NCBI RefSeq assembly: GCF_003226255.1
Contig: NZ_QJST01000006.1
Coordinates: forward strand, 62,001 to 126,000
Length of the DNA: 64,000 nucleotides
Source: Idiomarina fontislapidosi
GTDB lineage: Bacteria; Pseudomonadota; Gammaproteobacteria; Enterobacterales; Alteromonadaceae
Direction: 5' to 3'
Shown: positions 6,893 through 60,410 of the stretch, in pieces
Layout: every line of letters begins with the position of its first letter
Numbering within the stretch: the first letter of the stretch is position 1
Translations under genes and position numbers: made by a program
Notes under the pieces: generated by a model
What the model was told of the DNA's origin: nothing
Seen by the model: only the letters and a program-made list of their open reading frames with translations
Databases searched by the model: none

Positions 6893-6920
6893 TTGCCAAT
6901 TTAAAACGAGGCGTTATACT
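6893..6920 (+). promoter_or_regulatory. Candidate promoter of the thiamine operon
   Basis: A TTGCCA box at 6893-6898 and a TATACT box at 6915-6920 are 16 bases apart. Transcription would start near 6927, just before the riboswitch aptamer, which is the expected arrangement. The -35 box begins only three bases after the fre stop codon. Confidence 0.6.
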
Positions 6921-6930
6921 AGCGCCCGAG

Positions 6931-7012
6931 TACCAAGGGGTGCCTTTTTAGGCTGAGATGCGAAAGCGAACCCTTTTTACCTGATCCGGTTAATACTGGC
7001 GTAGGGATGGTC
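6931..7012 (+). promoter_or_regulatory. TPP riboswitch (THI-box) aptamer
   Basis: The conserved THI-box elements appear in order: GGGGTGCC (6937-6944), GGCTGAGATG (6951-6960), a short variable hairpin, ACCC (6970-6973), ACCTGATCCGGTTAATAC and GGCGTAGGGA. The outer stem pairs ACCA (6932-6935) with TGGT (7008-7011). TPP riboswitches bind thiamine diphosphate and switch off thiamine synthesis or uptake genes; the downstream genes fit this role fully. Recognition is by eye but the match is very strong. Confidence 0.97.
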
Positions 7013-7049
7013 AAGTCTCGCATACAATGAGTGAATAACCTCCTTCAGT

Positions 7050-7109
7050 ATCAGTCGCTGACTGATCAAAACCGGATCGTTTCTTTGCAGTCAATAAGGG
7101 AAATGATCC
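7050..7109 (+). promoter_or_regulatory. Riboswitch expression platform with ribosome-site sequestering hairpin
   Basis: Bases 7074-7086 can pair along their whole length with 7097-7109 (13 consecutive pairs including three G-U wobbles, 10-base loop). This buries the AAGGGA ribosome binding site and ends directly against the ATG at 7110. The same left arm extended upstream (AACCGGATC, 7070-7078) is also perfectly complementary to GATCCGGTT at 6983-6991 inside the aptamer. The two pairings exclude each other, as expected for a translational switch. A separate 7-bp hairpin ATCAGTC/GACTGAT lies at 7050-7066. There is no T-tract, so termination is unlikely. Confidence 0.75.
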
Positions 7110-9221
7110 ATGCACAACAACAAATTCAAACTATCCGCACTATTGCTCGGTTTGCTGAGCAGCACTTCTGCTTGGGCACAAGCCGCCGCTGAAACGATCG
7201 ATGAATCCATCGAAGTCGTGGGTGACTTTCAAAAACAAACCATCACAGAAACGACACGCAGCATCGCGATTGTTGATGAAAATGCGATGCAACAACGCGC
7301 CTCGCGTCACTTACAAGATGTCTTGAACTCGGTGGCTAACGTAAACTTTTCGGGTGGTTCGAATACCGCGCGTTTTATTCAAATACGTGGTATCGGTGAA
7401 CGTTCGCAGTTTGTCGATGCGATTAATCCATCGGTAGGCTTGGTTATCGATGGTATCGACTATTCTGGGTTGGGCTCTGCGGCGACATTATTCGATGTCG
7501 GACAAGTGGAAGTCTATCGTGGCCCACAAAGTGGTCGATTTGGCGTTAACGGGCTAGCGGGTATGGTGTTGCTCGAGTCTAATCAGCCTACCGAGGCTAC
7601 GAGTGGTGAGTGGCTAATCGGTGTGGGTAACTACTCTGAAAGCACATTGGCCGGCGCTGTGGGCGGCTCCTTGGGCGTGTTGGGCAATGCACGCTTATCC
7701 CTCATGCAATTCGACCAAAATGGCTATACTGAGAATACTTTTCTAAACCGCGATGATACTGAGCAACGTGATGAGTTCACGGCACGCTTAAGTATCGATA
7801 CTCAGCTCGGGCAAGATTGGCTTTTAAAAACCCGTATCCACAAAGTGGATGTAGACAATGGCTACGATGCCTTTAGTTTAGAGAACGATCGTACCACTTT
7901 ATCTGATGAACCTGGGTTTGATCGTTTGGATTCAACGGCTGCTCGATTACAGCTCGATTACAGTGGCTTTGAAAACTTTACGATTGAAACCGCGGTTAAC
8001 GTACTCAGCGCTGACAAAGACTACGCGTTTGACGAAGACTGGACTTATGTCGGTATTGCCCCTGGCTGGGAATACTCTTCGTTTGATGCGTATTATCGTG
8101 AACGTGACGATTTTACTGCCGAGTTGCGTATGACCTCAGATAAGCCAACAGCACTATGGGGCTTACCGACCGATTGGACCGCAGGGGTCTACTATTACAG
8201 TAAAGATGTTCAGTTGACCCGCGACTATTTTAATTGGGACATTGGCTCGCCAAGTATCTTTGGTAGCCAGTATGAAACCCACAATCAAGCGATTTATGGC
8301 GAGCTTGTGCAGCAGTTAAATGAAGCTTGGAGTTGGATTGGTGGGTTGCGTATCGAGCGGTATGACAACGACTATATGGATAGTAACGATGTGGTCGCCG
8401 AGCCAAGTGATACGATGGTTGGTGGTAACCTTAGCCTGCGCTATCAGTATGCGCCACAAAGCTATGCCTACGCTACGCTAGCGCGTGGTTACAAAGCGGG
8501 TGGTGTGAACGGTGAAGCGCTAGGCCGTGCTAAAGATCAACAGCTCGACGAGCTTGAAGCGTACTTGTTAGAACGAGCGACGTTTGCGCCCGAAATTCTG
8601 TGGAACGCGGAAGTGGGCGTCAAGGCAAGCCAGAGTGATTGGAGCTATCGTGTCGCTGCGTTTTATAACTGGCGTGATGATGTGCAACTCAAGAGTTGGG
8701 TTAATCGTAACCAGTCCTTCGTGGGGTATATCGAGAACGCCGCACAAGGTAGCAACTATGGCGTAGAAGCAGAACTGCGTTACCGCTTAAACGAAGGTGT
8801 CAGTGCGTTTGCATCACTCGGTTGGCTAGATACCGAAATCGATGGCTTTGTCACAGAAGACGGTATGGATATGAGTGGGCGCGAGCAGGCACATGCTCCT
8901 AATTATCAGGCGAACATTGGCTTTGAAGGGCAACTGACTAATGCCTTGAGTTGGAGCCTGCAAACCGATCTGAAAGATGGCTTTTATTTCTCTAACTCGC
9001 ATAACCAGCAAGCCGATAGTATGGCGTTGGTGCACGCACAGTTGAATTATGATTGGCACCAGTGGCGGTTCACGCTGTGGGGACGTAATTTAACGGATGA
9101 AGATTATGAAATCAGAGGTTTCTACTTTGGCAACGACCCACGTGATGAGTACGTGACAGAAACCTATGTTCAATATGGTGAGCCACGTCGCTTTGGTTTA
9201 ACCGCACGTTATACATTTTAA
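7110..9221 (+). CDS. TonB-dependent outer membrane receptor, probably for thiamine
   Basis: A 703-residue outer membrane receptor that should bind a substrate outside the cell and import it with energy from TonB-ExbBD. It has a signal peptide cleaved after AWA (about residue 23), a possible TonB box near residues 33-40 (ESIEVVGD), a plug domain to about residue 150 (FIQIRGIGERSQ, VEVYRGPQS), a long beta barrel and a terminal aromatic residue (RYTF). Its substrate is assigned from context: it is the first gene after a TPP riboswitch and is followed by thiamine-binding, transport and kinase genes. Thiamine-regulated receptors of this kind are known from comparative genomics of Alteromonadales-type bacteria (called Omr1). 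Direct evidence for thiamine binding is absent. Confidence 0.85.
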   Translation: MHNNKFKLSALLLGLLSSTSAWAQAAAETIDESIEVVGDFQKQTITETTRSIAIVDENAMQQRASRHLQDVLNSVANVNFSGGSNTARFIQIRGIGERSQFVDAINPSVGLVIDGIDYSGLGSAATLFDVGQVEVYRGPQSGRFGVNGLAGMVLLESNQPTEATSGEWLIGVGNYSESTLAGAVGGSLGVLGNARLSLMQFDQNGYTENTFLNRDDTEQRDEFTARLSIDTQLGQDWLLKTRIHKVDVDNGYDAFSLENDRTTLSDEPGFDRLDSTAARLQLDYSGFENFTIETAVNVLSADKDYAFDEDWTYVGIAPGWEYSSFDAYYRERDDFTAELRMTSDKPTALWGLPTDWTAGVYYYSKDVQLTRDYFNWDIGSPSIFGSQYETHNQAIYGELVQQLNEAWSWIGGLRIERYDNDYMDSNDVVAEPSDTMVGGNLSLRYQYAPQSYAYATLARGYKAGGVNGEALGRAKDQQLDELEAYLLERATFAPEILWNAEVGVKASQSDWSYRVAAFYNWRDDVQLKSWVNRNQSFVGYIENAAQGSNYGVEAELRYRLNEGVSAFASLGWLDTEIDGFVTEDGMDMSGREQAHAPNYQANIGFEGQLTNALSWSLQTDLKDGFYFSNSHNQQADSMALVHAQLNYDWHQWRFTLWGRNLTDEDYEIRGFYFGNDPRDEYVTETYVQYGEPRRFGLTARYTF

Positions 9222-9230
9222 GGAGGTTGT

Positions 9231-9491
9231 ATGCCATTTTCTGCAGAACTCTCGTTGTATCCACTAGCGAATAACTACATTGAGGTGATTCAAGCGTTTA
9301 TTGATCGACTCAACCAACACGAGGATTTAACTGTGTTGACGAATACCATGAGCACGCAAGTGTTTGGTGAGCTTGAGGTTGTTATGAGTGCGCTGACTGA
9401 AGAACTAACTTGGTTGTATGACCGTGTGCCTTCGCAGGTCTTGGTGTGTAAGTTTATCAATAAAGATCTCACGCCTGATCATGCTAAGTGA
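9231..9491 (+). CDS. YkoF/MTH1187-like thiamine-binding domain protein
   Basis: An 86-residue cytoplasmic protein without signal peptide. The pattern FSAELSLYPLANNYIEVIQAFI, followed by a TNTMSTQVFGE strand and a C-terminal VCKFINK strand, resembles the ferredoxin-like fold of the YkoF/MTH1187 family. Family members bind thiamine or hydroxymethylpyrimidine; B. subtilis YkoF has two such domains and this protein has one. It starts 10 bases after the receptor behind a near-perfect AAGGAGGT ribosome binding site, which suggests high expression. A buffering or delivery role is an inference. The family call is by motif resemblance, strengthened by the thiamine context. Confidence 0.7.
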   Translation: MPFSAELSLYPLANNYIEVIQAFIDRLNQHEDLTVLTNTMSTQVFGELEVVMSALTEELTWLYDRVPSQVLVCKFINKDLTPDHAK

Positions 9492-9495
9492 GTTA

Positions 9496-10089
9496 ATGGA
9501 AAAACTTATGCTGAGCTCCGTTTGGGAGCTCGGCGCATTGATATTGGCGCTTGCCTACTTAGTGTTGGCGGCACACCAACGGCAATGGTGCTGGCTGGCA
9601 GCAGCCGTAAGCTGTTGCGTATATGCCAGTATTTTTTGGGATGCCAAGCTGTATATGGAATCTTTATTACAGGTGATTTACGTCTTGATGGCTGGCTACG
9701 GTTGGTGGCAGTGGCGGCATCAAGGCAGTGCCGTTGAAGAGAACCAACGAGGTCATCACTATTCACTTAAGTGGCATCTCACGCAATGGACATGGGTTTC
9801 TGTTGCAGCGGTTATCACGGCACTCCTGCTGCAACGCTATACTGACGCAGATGCAGTTTGGCTGGATACCTTTACCACGGCGTTTAGCTTACTGGCGACC
9901 TATTTGGTCACAAAAAAAGCGATGGAAACATGGTGGTATTGGCTCGTCATCGATTCGGTTTATGTTTATTTGTACCTAAGTAAAGGCTTTGTTGCCACAG
10001 CCATGTTGTTCGTTGTGTACCTTGCGCTGGTGGTTTACGCCATGTACCGATGGCGAGTGGATGATGAACCTGCGGCACAAGCCACATGA
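9496..10089 (+). CDS. pnuT: PnuC/PnuT-family membrane transporter, probably thiamine (PnuT)
   Basis: A 197-residue inner membrane protein with about seven hydrophobic segments. The ESLLQVIYVLMAGYGWWQW motif is typical of the PnuC vitamin-transporter family, where the tryptophans and polar residues line the substrate site. PnuC members found in TPP-controlled operons are called PnuT and carry thiamine by facilitated diffusion, trapped afterwards by phosphorylation. I chose ATG 9496, five bases after the preceding stop; the longer frame from 9418 would overlap the upstream gene by 74 bases and has a non-membrane start. ATG 9481 or 9508 are also possible. It overlaps the next gene by four bases (ATGA). 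Confidence 0.8.
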   Translation: MEKLMLSSVWELGALILALAYLVLAAHQRQWCWLAAAVSCCVYASIFWDAKLYMESLLQVIYVLMAGYGWWQWRHQGSAVEENQRGHHYSLKWHLTQWTWVSVAAVITALLLQRYTDADAVWLDTFTTAFSLLATYLVTKKAMETWWYWLVIDSVYVYLYLSKGFVATAMLFVVYLALVVYAMYRWRVDDEPAAQAT

Positions 10090-10802
10090 AATTACCACGA
10101 CCGCAATGCGTTGAGCGTATTTCAACTGGACAGGTAAACGACGTTTGGCGCATTGTCTGTGCCGATAATAGTTACCTGTTTAAATGGCTTAATTCACACG
10201 CCGGTCTATTACTTGATCGGCGTGATGAACTCCGCTTACAGACCGCGCTTGCGGCTCAAGGGCTAGCGCCGGGCATCATTGATACGGACTATCAGCGCTG
10301 GGTGCTGCAGCACTATGTTGAAGGGCCGACGTTAGCGCAAAGTGCGTTGTCGCGAGCGCAACGCCTTGATATCACCATGCAACTGATGGCAACGCTTCAC
10401 CAAACATCCGTGAGCTATCAGGGCCCCACCTTTTGGCAGCGTCTGGACGGTTATTTTAAATCGGCACCGAGTCACATAACCGAGCGAATTAAATCACTGC
10501 GATCACGCTTAGAAATTGACTCAACGCACGTGTGCCTTTGCCATTTCGATCTTTCTTTCGATAATATCGTACTAACAGAACGACCTGTCGCGTTGGATTG
10601 GGAGTACGCTAGTCTGGGTAACCCCGCCATTGATTTTGCCAGTACCATGTTAATTAATGCGTGTACTGTACATGAGCAACACACCTGCTTTGCAGAGTAT
10701 GCTCGGCTTCATCCGAACCGCTTGCAGTGGAACGATGTGGCGATAGCTTTGGAACTGATGCAATGGGTCAATGACATTTGGTATCAATTAGCTGACGATT
10801 AG
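10086..10802 (+). CDS. ThiK-like thiamine kinase (APH/choline kinase family)
   Basis: A 238-residue cytoplasmic phosphotransferase. The catalytic motif H153-x-D155-x4-N160 (CHFDLSFDNIVL) and the metal-binding D171-W-E173 (ALDWEYASLGNP) place it in the aminoglycoside phosphotransferase/choline kinase fold, to which thiamine kinase ThiK belongs. In this operon it would phosphorylate imported thiamine and so trap it; thiamine phosphate would then need ThiL, which is not in the window. The start ATG overlaps the pnuT stop by four bases, so the two are translationally coupled, consistent with uptake by group trapping. The substrate is assigned by context. Confidence 0.75.
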   Translation: MKLPRPQCVERISTGQVNDVWRIVCADNSYLFKWLNSHAGLLLDRRDELRLQTALAAQGLAPGIIDTDYQRWVLQHYVEGPTLAQSALSRAQRLDITMQLMATLHQTSVSYQGPTFWQRLDGYFKSAPSHITERIKSLRSRLEIDSTHVCLCHFDLSFDNIVLTERPVALDWEYASLGNPAIDFASTMLINACTVHEQHTCFAEYARLHPNRLQWNDVAIALELMQWVNDIWYQLADD

Positions 10803-10811
10803 GGAAAAATA

Positions 10812-12128
10812 ATGGCAGACAAGCAATTGATGAATCGTGTCTACGGTTACCTTGCCGAGGACGAAGACGCACGAGTATGTAAAGATATCCCAGACAATGC
10901 ATGTAATGAGCAGCCTCGCTCATTTGTGTTGATGCTTATTTCGTTAATGTTTACCAAGCTTGGCGATTCATTGGTCAGTGCACGGCTTGTCTTAGCATGG
11001 ATGCTCAGTGCTCTAGGCGCACCGCCAGTATTTATCAGTGCATTGGTGCCGATCCGAGAGTCGTTGGCACTGCTACCACAACTGTTTGTTGCGCAAAAGC
11101 TCCGCGAACAACCTGTCCGTAAGTGGTTTTGGGTGGCGGGTAGTGTTGGCCAAGCTGTTTCACTTGCCTTAATGCTGGTTGCCGTGGCGACGCTCGACGG
11201 CAGTGCGCTGGGTTGGACAGTCATTTTATTCTTAATTACTTTTTCACTGTCGCGCGGAATATGCTCGGTCGCCAACAAAGACGTGACGGGAAAAACTATC
11301 TCTAAAACACGGCGCGGAAGACTCTCAGGTGTTGCTGCCTCGGCAGCGGGTTTACTGACCCTGGTAACGGCAGTCGTGATTGTCATGTTCCCAGATGTTG
11401 AGGGTGAACGTAGCCTCTTTCTCGTTCTACTGGGTGGTGGCGTTGTGCTGTGGTCGCTTGCTGCTATTACCTACGCTGGTATCCCTGAAGTCGCTGGTGC
11501 CACTGAGGGAGGCGGTAACGCAATCAGCGAAGCGCTAAAATCCTTGTCTTTGCTGTGGCGCAATAGCCTATTTGGGCACTTTGTCATTACCCGCGCATCA
11601 CTCGTCGCAGCGGCATTTGCTATCCCATATATCGTTGTCTTGATTCAGCGTGAGGGCGGTGCCGGTTACACGAGCTTGGGTAGTTTACTGTTGGCCAGTG
11701 GACTCGCGGGTCTATTAGCCGGTCGATTCTGGGGACGTTGGTCTGATTCGGCGAGCCATCATGTGATGGCAGCGGCTTCGGTGATGTCCACCCTTGTCAT
11801 GCTGTTGGCTTTGGCATTGTTTTATTGGTTTCCTGAAGCGCTCAGTTCAATTTGGGCCGCAGGTGGGCTGATGTTTTTATCGGCAGTAGCACACCATGGC
11901 GCACGTGTCGGGCGCAAAACTTATCTTGTTGATATGGCAAACCAAGACAATCGAGCGCAGTTGACTGCCGTCTCGAACACCGTGATGGGTGTCATCTTAC
12001 TCGCCGGAATTCTACTGGGCTGGCTGGATGCCGCCTTTGGCGTGTCAGCTGTATTATGGTTGCTCGTGAGTATCGGTGTGCTGGCAACCGTTTCGTCATT
12101 GTCGCTGAAAAATGTGTCTGGCGCTTAG
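10812..12128 (+). CDS. Major facilitator-like membrane transporter, substrate unknown
   Basis: A 438-residue integral membrane protein with about 12 hydrophobic segments and a polar, cysteine-containing N-terminal stretch of about 38 residues. Loops such as KLREQPVRKW and GRFWGRWSD resemble the basic loop motifs of the major facilitator superfamily. It begins nine bases after the ThiK-like gene with an AGGGA ribosome site, so it is probably the last gene of the thiamine operon. It could import or export thiamine or a precursor, or be unrelated to thiamine; the sequence does not say. Its stop codon lies inside a hairpin that serves as terminator for the opposing gene. Confidence 0.65.
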   Translation: MADKQLMNRVYGYLAEDEDARVCKDIPDNACNEQPRSFVLMLISLMFTKLGDSLVSARLVLAWMLSALGAPPVFISALVPIRESLALLPQLFVAQKLREQPVRKWFWVAGSVGQAVSLALMLVAVATLDGSALGWTVILFLITFSLSRGICSVANKDVTGKTISKTRRGRLSGVAASAAGLLTLVTAVVIVMFPDVEGERSLFLVLLGGGVVLWSLAAITYAGIPEVAGATEGGGNAISEALKSLSLLWRNSLFGHFVITRASLVAAAFAIPYIVVLIQREGGAGYTSLGSLLLASGLAGLLAGRFWGRWSDSASHHVMAAASVMSTLVMLLALALFYWFPEALSSIWAAGGLMFLSAVAHHGARVGRKTYLVDMANQDNRAQLTAVSNTVMGVILLAGILLGWLDAAFGVSAVLWLLVSIGVLATVSSLSLKNVSGA

Positions 12129-12531: not shown

Positions 12532-14997
12532 ATGAAAGATAAAATAATTAAATTGAGTGTGGTCGCGCTTGCCGTCTCAGCAGTTTGCAGTGCCTCACCG
12601 GCTTTGGCACAACAACAACAAGCTGAAGAAGCGCCAGAAGATATTGAGCGTATTGTGACGTTAGGTTCGCGTGTTAATGGACGCACAGCCACCGAATCGG
12701 CGTCTCCTGTTGATATTATCTCAAGCGAGCAGCTTGCGGAAACAGGAGCGTCAGAACTCGGTAAGGCGATCCAAATGAGCGCACCCTCGTTTAACTTTTC
12801 TTCCACCACCATTTCAGATGGTTCGGATATCATTCGACCCGCAACATTACGCGGTCTAGGTCCGGATCAAGTACTTGTGCTCGTCAACGGTAAACGCCGT
12901 CATCAACAGGCATTGGTTAACGTGCAAGAGACCATTGGCAAGGGCTCCGCTGGTTACGATATTAATGCTATTCCTATTACCGCAGTGGAGCGTGTTGAGA
13001 TCTTGCGCGATGGCGCCGCTGCGCAGTATGGCTCTGATGCAATCGCGGGTGTTATTAATATCACGCTAAAGTCCAGCGACGGTGGCAGTGTTAATGCGGA
13101 AATCGGGCAAACCTATGAAGGCGATGGTGAAGTTAATCAAGTTGGCTTGAACCTAGGCACCACCAGTGACAAAGGTCACTTTAACGTTACGCTCGAGTAT
13201 CGAGACCGTGGCATGACCAATCGTGCCGCGCCAGCGACACTCGAAGCGACCGGCGGTCAACTCATTGGTGACTGGTGGGATCGCAATGGCGATCCGGTGG
13301 TGCGTCTGCATGTGGGTGATGCCGATTCAGAAAACTATTATGCGTGGTTTAACTCGGCTTACACTCTCTCTAGTACGACTGAGCTTTATGCGTTTGGCGG
13401 TATTTCATCGCGTGATGGCGGTTCAGCGGGCTTTTTCCGTGGGCGCGGTCACCCAAGAACAATCGAAACACTTTATCCCGATGGGTTTTTACCGCAACTT
13501 AAAACCGAGGCAGATGATCAATCGCTGGCGGTTGGCGTGCGAGGCGACTTACCCAATGCGTGGTTATGGGACGCCAGTATCGTTTATGGCAAGAATGAGT
13601 TTGGTTTTAACTCAGCCAATTCGGCTAACGTAAGTTGGTATTACGAGCCTGCTCCGGGCGGCGGAATTTACGCAGAAACGCCGACAGAGGCATTTGACGG
13701 TGAATTGGTGTTTGACCAAACCACATTTAATCTTGATTTTAACGGTACTGTTGATTTAAACAACGAACTGCTCTATCTCGCGTTAGGTGTTGAGTTTAGA
13801 ACGGACGGTTATGAGATCAATGCAGGTGACCCCGTGTCGTGGGCATACGGTCGCACCAATGATCCATCAGTCACTATTCTGACACCTTCGGGTGACCCAG
13901 CAGAGGCGGGTATTCAGGGCTTCCCTGGCTTCAGTCCAGGTCAAGAAGTGGATGCAACTCGAGATAGCTATGGCGCGTACGTGGATGCTGAGTACTACGT
14001 GACACCCGACTGGTTGTTAGCTGGTGCGTTGCGATATGAAGACTACGATATTGCTGGAGATAACATCTCGGGAAAAATCTCCACGCGCTATGATATTACC
14101 AGTGACTTTTCTGTGCGCGGTACCTTAGCGACCGGCTTTAGGGCGCCTGGTGTGCAACAGATTTATTACTCGCAAGTGCTCACTAATATTGTCAACGGTA
14201 CCCTGGTGCAGACGGGGACTGTATCCAATGACGACGATGTCGCGCGTCAGTTTGGTATCAATCGACTTGAAGAGGAAACCTCAGAGAGCGCGAGTATCGG
14301 TATCATTAAACGTTGGCGAAACGGCCTCGATCTGACGGTCGACTTGTATCAGATCAACATTGACGACCGCATTGTGATCTCTGAACCCTTGACCGCCGAT
14401 GTTGGTGCGGAGTTTGCCGCTATCCTCGAGAACAATAACCTCGGTGCGGCTCAGTTTTTCACGAACTCTGTGGATACCAAAACTCAAGGGTTGGATATCA
14501 TTGCCTCATATCCGACTGAAGTGCTCAGCGGTGATCTGGTATTAACCACCGCACTGAGCTTTGTTAATACGGACGTTGAACAGGTCAATTCGGTATCTTC
14601 GCTGATCTCGGCAGAGCAGATCTTCAATGATACGCAGGTGCTGCGTATTGAGGAGGGCCAGCCGAGCGAGAAGGCGTCAATTATGGCGGATTGGGAGCGA
14701 GACCGTTGGAGTGTGAATGTGGCATTTAACTACTTTGGTGCGGTCGAAGGTCAAGCGTTTACGGGTATAAAGCACAAGTGGGATGGTAAGTGGCTCACCG
14801 ATTTGTCGGTCGGCTATGATCTCACCGATGATTTCAAAGTGGTCGTGGGTGCGAATAACTTGTTCGATACCTATCCCGACGAGTGGGGGAGCGCGGGCGT
14901 GCCTTTCTCTCAAGCTGGCTTTAAGTATGGCTGGGAGACTTTACCCTTTGGGATCAATGGTGGTTATTACTACGTAAAAGCGAAGTACAGTTTCTAA
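12532..14997 (+). CDS. TonB-dependent outer membrane receptor, substrate unknown
   Basis: An 821-residue receptor of the outer membrane. It has a signal peptide cleaved after ALA (about residue 26), a TonB-box-like stretch near residues 38-45 (IERIVTLG), a plug domain (TLRGLGPDQVLVLVNGKRRHQ, VERVEILRDGAAAQYGSDAIAGVINI), a barrel and the terminal YSF signature. The plug motifs are of the large TonB receptor class common in marine bacteria, often annotated as siderophore or carbohydrate/peptide receptors. No transport partner is adjacent, so the substrate cannot be inferred. It starts after a GAAGGAAGAGCG ribosome site and ends at a bidirectional terminator. Confidence 0.9.
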   Translation: MKDKIIKLSVVALAVSAVCSASPALAQQQQAEEAPEDIERIVTLGSRVNGRTATESASPVDIISSEQLAETGASELGKAIQMSAPSFNFSSTTISDGSDIIRPATLRGLGPDQVLVLVNGKRRHQQALVNVQETIGKGSAGYDINAIPITAVERVEILRDGAAAQYGSDAIAGVINITLKSSDGGSVNAEIGQTYEGDGEVNQVGLNLGTTSDKGHFNVTLEYRDRGMTNRAAPATLEATGGQLIGDWWDRNGDPVVRLHVGDADSENYYAWFNSAYTLSSTTELYAFGGISSRDGGSAGFFRGRGHPRTIETLYPDGFLPQLKTEADDQSLAVGVRGDLPNAWLWDASIVYGKNEFGFNSANSANVSWYYEPAPGGGIYAETPTEAFDGELVFDQTTFNLDFNGTVDLNNELLYLALGVEFRTDGYEINAGDPVSWAYGRTNDPSVTILTPSGDPAEAGIQGFPGFSPGQEVDATRDSYGAYVDAEYYVTPDWLLAGALRYEDYDIAGDNISGKISTRYDITSDFSVRGTLATGFRAPGVQQIYYSQVLTNIVNGTLVQTGTVSNDDDVARQFGINRLEEETSESASIGIIKRWRNGLDLTVDLYQINIDDRIVISEPLTADVGAEFAAILENNNLGAAQFFTNSVDTKTQGLDIIASYPTEVLSGDLVLTTALSFVNTDVEQVNSVSSLISAEQIFNDTQVLRIEEGQPSEKASIMADWERDRWSVNVAFNYFGAVEGQAFTGIKHKWDGKWLTDLSVGYDLTDDFKVVVGANNLFDTYPDEWGSAGVPFSQAGFKYGWETLPFGINGGYYYVKAKYSF

Positions 14998-60195: not shown

Positions 60196-60271
<76 letters not shown>

Positions 60272-60334: not shown

Positions 60335-60410
<76 letters not shown>

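Follow-up and report, generated by a model that had tools for sequence, protein, structure and literature searches.

The forward strand of the 64,000-nucleotide stretch of Idiomarina fontislapidosi DNA analysed here (the window) carries a TPP riboswitch aptamer ahead of a TonB-dependent receptor gene, which is followed by genes coding for a small YkoF-like protein, a PnuC-family transporter and a ThiK-like kinase (Table 1). The initial annotation had called a TPP riboswitch at this place, and an Rfam search bears it out: the aptamer matches RF00059 over the full model (1-105 of 105) with 71 bits, the gathering score being 54.3 bits. Judged by its sequence, this match is a genuine TPP riboswitch, for which TPP binding is predicted, and according to a genome-wide search it is the sole TPP riboswitch of the genome. 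Mapping of the Rfam structure places P1 at 6932-6935/7008-7011, P4 at 6980-6983/7002-7005 and P5 at 6986-6989/6996-6999. The aptamer ends 85 bases ahead of the ATG of the receptor gene. The score of the candidate promoter is weak by itself, as shuffles yield 0.6 per region; in almost every sister leader its -10 box is found equally far from the aptamer.

Table 1. Features of the TPP riboswitch leader and its downstream operon (window coordinates).
Feature	Position	Strand	Basis
Candidate sigma-70 promoter TTGCCA-16-TATACT, directly 5' of aptamer	6893..6920	+	10/12 consensus matches
TPP riboswitch aptamer	6926..7024	+	RF00059 match
Aptamer strand captured by anti-aptamer (last P4 base, J4/5, P5 5' strand, L5 start)	6983..6991	+	Sequence, structure mapping, fold
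P5, P4 and P1 3' strands taken by second anti-aptamer block (6993-6999, 7004-7011)	6993..7011	+	Constrained fold
Second anti-aptamer block, partner of 6993-7011; clade-specific sequence	7038..7051	+	Constrained fold
7-bp spacer hairpin ATCAGTC-GCT-GACTGAT	7050..7066	+	Sequence; P 0.80 in free fold
Anti-aptamer strand AACCGGATC	7070..7078	+	Sequence, fold, shuffles; ACCGG invariant in 18 leaders
SD-sequestering hairpin, left arm; 7074-7078 also in anti-aptamer	7074..7086	+	Sequence, fold, conservation
SD-sequestering hairpin, right arm, carries AGGG of SD	7097..7109	+	Sequence, fold, conservation, shuffles
TonB-dependent receptor, first gene of operon	7110..9221	+	Pfam PF00593, PF07715; conserved with riboswitch
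Small YkoF-like protein	9231..9491	+	PF07615, E 0.00058, 20.7 bits, just below cut-off of 21
PnuC-family transporter, probably PnuT (thiamine)	9481..10089	+	PF04973, 152 bits; start codon 9481 chosen by the analyst
ThiK-like kinase (APH/choline-kinase fold family)	10086..10802	+	PF01636; TIGR02721 82 bits, below cut-off of 299

The downstream operon and thiamine metabolism

The named sequences closest to the receptor gene, at 93% protein identity, belong to Idiomarina baltica OS145 and to two further Idiomarinaceae records. In Idiomarina the PnuC-family transporter is 68-92% identical and adjoins the receptor gene, and the gene order of the operon is maintained in close relatives and largely so in distant ones. 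With a TonB receptor and a PnuC-family transporter behind a TPP riboswitch, it has the make-up of a TPP-regulated thiamine salvage operon. Whole-genome family searches detected thiL and found neither thiC nor thiG, so that external thiamine should be needed, and the host is predicted from this gene content to be a thiamine auxotroph. Within the genus, 11 of 19 genomes possess thiC and thiG, and it is precisely these 11 that carry a second TPP riboswitch. TPP-regulated transporters correlate with predicted thiamine auxotrophy in other lineages as well (PMC3766115). We infer that both receptor and transporter take thiamine as substrate, given that a riboswitch precedes them, a ThiK-like gene adjoins them and thiC and thiG are missing.

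A similar arrangement is known from the OMthi-pnuT-tnr3 operons of Bacteroidetes, in which a TonB-dependent outer-membrane thiamine transporter and PnuT are under TPP riboswitches; the transport roles of OMthi and PnuT are backed genetically in Bacteroides, biosynthesis-minus mutants of B. thetaiotaomicron that also lack one or the other transporter needing more thiamine (PMC5613172). Both systems place a TonB receptor and PnuC/PnuT behind a TPP riboswitch, but the present operon belongs to a gammaproteobacterium and encodes the YkoF-like protein and the ThiK-like kinase instead of tnr3.

Further genes of the window deserve mention. An MFS-like transporter gene (10812-12128) begins 9 bases past the ThiK-like gene; it is 81-95% identical and adjacent in other Idiomarina, and may be co-transcribed with the operon. 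A second large TonB-dependent-receptor-like ORF (12532-14997) lies 3' of the thiamine operon, with no TPP aptamer ahead of it. Two tRNA genes (60196-60268 and 60335-60407), 66 bases apart, have equal scores and identical sequences in the Rfam alignment.

Two mutually exclusive pairings and their conservation

Two pairings had been read from the leader, and both are exact. The left arm of the SD hairpin (7074-7086, GGATCGTTTCTTT) pairs with the right arm (7097-7109, AGGGAAATGATCC) in 13 consecutive pairs, 10 of them Watson-Crick and 3 G-U, burying the AGGG of the SD and ending flush against the ATG at 7110. The nine bases 7070-7078 (AACCGGATC) are the exact reverse complement of 6983-6991 (GATCCGGTT), and no stretch of the platform has a longer Watson-Crick match in the aptamer. 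The Rfam alignment justifies the label of P4/P5 region given to this target, as it comprises the last P4 base, the AU of J4/5, the P5 5' strand and two L5 bases. Both helices need 7074-7078 and consequently exclude each other, as had been claimed. The anti-aptamer is longer than first described: G7079 could extend it by a G-U pair with U6982, and in constrained folding the whole helix joins 6983-7011 with 7038-7078, a second block being formed by 6993-6999/7045-7051 together with 7004-7011/7038-7044. This second block does not occur in the same form in other Idiomarina. It overlaps by two bases the spacer hairpin (arms 7050-7056/7060-7066), which is confined to the I. baltica clade.

To gauge chance expectation, 7013-7109 was put through 3000 dinucleotide shuffles. 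None of them gave a 13-pair helix ending at most 6 bases before the ATG, nor a looser joint form with a shared arm (0/3000), while in 53 some part of the aptamer found a nine-base Watson-Crick complement. Both pairings together exceed chance.

The shared-arm design, where the anti-aptamer strand doubles as the left arm of the SD hairpin, is found in 32 of the 46 distinct TonB-receptor-type TPP leaders of the family, which are related by descent and hence not independent, and in 133 of 4600 shuffles. A set of 18 distinct leaders from Idiomarina and neighbouring genera shows no variation in the anti-aptamer ACCGG or in much of the sequestor. The sequestor helix is 90% paired across relatives; pair 7078-7105 changes from C-G to U-A in three sequences and to U-G in two, the other pairs are mostly invariant or changed on one side, and covariation support for this helix is thin. 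The anti-aptamer helix is 94% paired across relatives; its aptamer strand is the same in all Idiomarina, which leaves the helix without two-sided covariation there, and a comparison between wider leader classes was used instead. The target of receptor-type leaders is P4/P5 (median z -2.7) rather than P1 (+0.5), while that of thiC-type leaders is the P1/P2 5' strand (median z -2.0), in a comparison that omitted four thiC-type leaders without a start codon in range and took wrong automatic start codons for L005 and L071; the shared-arm and transient-fold counts use replaced start codons for these two. The P4/P5 z-scores of thiC-type leaders are rough, since the search pattern chose the wrong CCTG in some of them, as it did in L061. 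The thiC-type leaders of other Idiomarina resemble the present one in aptamer class, SD hairpin and competing anti-aptamer strand but differ in the strand they hit, and this type is missing from the genome under study.

The shared-arm design appears again in two leaders of distant gammaproteobacteria, L062 and L064 (duplexes of -15.5 and -14.1 kcal/mol), with CCGGGTCTC as the arm and GGAGACT on the SD side; it is absent from the Chromatocurvus leader L065. The receptor-type leaders L022, L075, L079, L080 and L065 have no ACCGGATC arm, the platforms of the first four being only about 41 bases long, and the P4-P5 design was probably lost or replaced in these lineages. Three other receptor-type leaders (L081, L082 and L090) carry GGATCAT or GGGTCAT at P5/L5 and TGATCC in the platform, so that their anti-aptamer contact seems to be register-shifted with both sides matching. 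At a further locus (L085, G074:C621:6050-7350), a thiC-type and a receptor-type TPP aptamer stand back to back in divergent orientation, 117 bases apart.

These comparisons bear on an alternative, namely that the SD hairpin keeps expression low constitutively and that the complementarity to P4-P5 is accidental. The 53 shuffles with a nine-base match to some part of the aptamer and the dominance of the hairpin in the full-length RNA (see below) would be in keeping with it, but the 32 leaders retain both the anti-aptamer strand and the overlap of this strand with the arm, the design recurs in distant lineages and the joint feature never arose by shuffling; we regard such an accident as highly improbable. 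The switch type itself is well known; what is conserved in related bacteria, as far as their leader sequences tell, is a toggle on P4-P5 instead of the base stem.

Folding order and mode of control

Translational OFF riboswitches have been described as working through an antisequestor (PMC2258182). Here, the 7070-7078/6983-6991 pairing shares the sequestor arm and breaks the aptamer, and the SD is buried in a hairpin adjoining the start codon, whereas the intrinsic terminator before the start codon that marks the transcription-attenuating class was not found in the platform (7013-7109). The earlier proposal of translational control by an RBS-hiding hairpin agrees with the conserved pairings, with this lack of an intrinsic terminator and with the uptake-like operon. 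Based on aptamer identity, pairings, conservation and operon content, a translational OFF-with-TPP switch is most likely. The leader could also set the mRNA level via Rho or RNase, directly or through blocked translation, as both layers exist in E. coli thiM, thiC and tbpA (PMC11487190); in a platform without an intrinsic terminator, Rho would be the route for such control. We hold this additional layer to be possible, at somewhat under even odds.

The folding-energy check suggested with the initial annotation showed that the two pairings compete, and that the outcome depends on transcript length. Only for transcripts ending at about 7078-7106 does the anti-aptamer prevail, with a probability of about 0.98 for 3' ends 7078-7103; with the 3' end at 7078, the native aptamer, when forced, is about 12 kcal/mol less stable. 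From 3' end 7109, when its right arm is complete, the SD hairpin takes over even without TPP. The probability of the anti-aptamer drops to 0.22 at 7109 and to 0.02 at 7130, where that of the SD hairpin is about 0.97 in the nearest-neighbour ensemble with the aptamer not forced, energies that leave out tertiary contacts, Mg and ligand. At lower temperatures (15-30 C) the SD hairpin is favoured still more. The annotated direction of switching therefore stands in part: the OFF-with-TPP logic agrees with the conserved pairings and the operon, but removal of TPP alone is not predicted to free a site that is hidden at about 0.97.

With the SD hairpin dominant at full length, either the ON state must be caught co-transcriptionally or the energy model is wrong by about 3 kcal/mol. 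The ensemble gap between SD hairpin and anti-aptamer at 7130, about 2.7 kcal/mol, is inside model error, and the full-length probability of the anti-aptamer ranges from 0.00 to 0.97 in sister Idiomarina leaders; the OFF balance of the full-length RNA is consequently a prediction and not a result. A thermodynamic two-state switch, in which the ligand-free full-length RNA would rest in the anti-aptamer form with the SD open, could draw on this small gap, on the competition itself and on several sister leaders in which the full-length anti-aptamer is favoured (L039 0.96, L049 0.97, L051 0.95), as well as on E. coli thiM, tbpA and thiC, whose full-length RNAs have the SD about half open when calculated in the same way. 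It is at odds with the probabilities computed at 7130 for the present leader, which lower temperature does not improve, and we consider it rather unlikely. A transient anti-aptamer exceeds a probability of 0.5 in 37 of 49 receptor-type leaders, including all those of Idiomarina. The competition between the pairings is real, and it is predicted by the fold calculations to be kinetic and not purely thermodynamic.

Our preferred reading, to which we assign a probability of roughly 0.85, is that the TPP riboswitch shuts translation of the thiamine-uptake operon at high TPP, the order of folds pointing to kinetic control. The aptamer would be transcribed first and be able to bind TPP. With TPP bound, the P4-P5 arm would be held, leaving 7074-7086 free to pair with 7097-7109 and to hide the SD. 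Without TPP, 7070-7078 would invade the P4-P5 arm on emerging, with 7038-7051 as a second block, so that the left arm would already be occupied when the SD is transcribed and the ribosome could load. Folding would thus proceed from aptamer to anti-aptamer to sequestor, the full-length RNA drifting to OFF, and it is this computed order that suggests kinetic, co-transcriptional control in this genome.

The closest known systems are those of E. coli. In tbpA (thiB) and thiC, TPP turns translation OFF, an anti-P1 stem forms without ligand and sensing takes place in a co-transcriptional window (PMC11487190). They share with the present leader the TPP aptamer, the OFF logic, an SD hidden with ligand and a competing anti-aptamer stem. 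Unlike their anti-P1 stem, however, the platform described here captures the P4-P5 arm, and while the full-length E. coli leaders retain anti-aptamer pairing in the same fold calculation, with the SD about half unpaired, the present leader flips to a hidden SD. For thiM, also a translational TPP OFF switch, sensing, downhill and functional windows were computed and the switch was classed as kinetic (PMC3280964); the order of windows is the same here. In the fold calculation, the main partner of the thiM platform is the 3' half of the aptamer, from the P5 3' to the P1 3' strand, in contrast to the nine-base perfect contact with the P4/P5 5' strand found here.

A search of the accessible literature returned no paper naming both Idiomarina and the TPP riboswitch, and the work describing anti-P1 stems in E. 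coli does not deal with receptor operons of this type. The leader offers a clean example of a two-state translational riboswitch, the genome's only TPP switch guarding vitamin uptake in a predicted auxotroph. More tentatively, and with less than even confidence, we suggest that a conserved class of TPP riboswitches at gammaproteobacterial thiamine-receptor operons toggles by dismantling the pyrophosphate-sensing P4-P5 arm and not P1, and that the ON state of the I. baltica clade is purely transient. If the latter is true, the switch would be open for only about 30 nt of transcription and translation must start on the nascent RNA; the kinetic prediction, if true, would likewise show to what extent a translational switch depends on the timing of transcription. 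The contrast between P4-P5 and P1, together with the predicted kinetic dependence, may be useful to specialists. Two platform designs exist within one genus, receptor-type leaders acting on P4-P5 and thiC-type leaders on P1, and their occurrence side by side is relevant to the evolution of expression platforms as separate from that of the aptamer.
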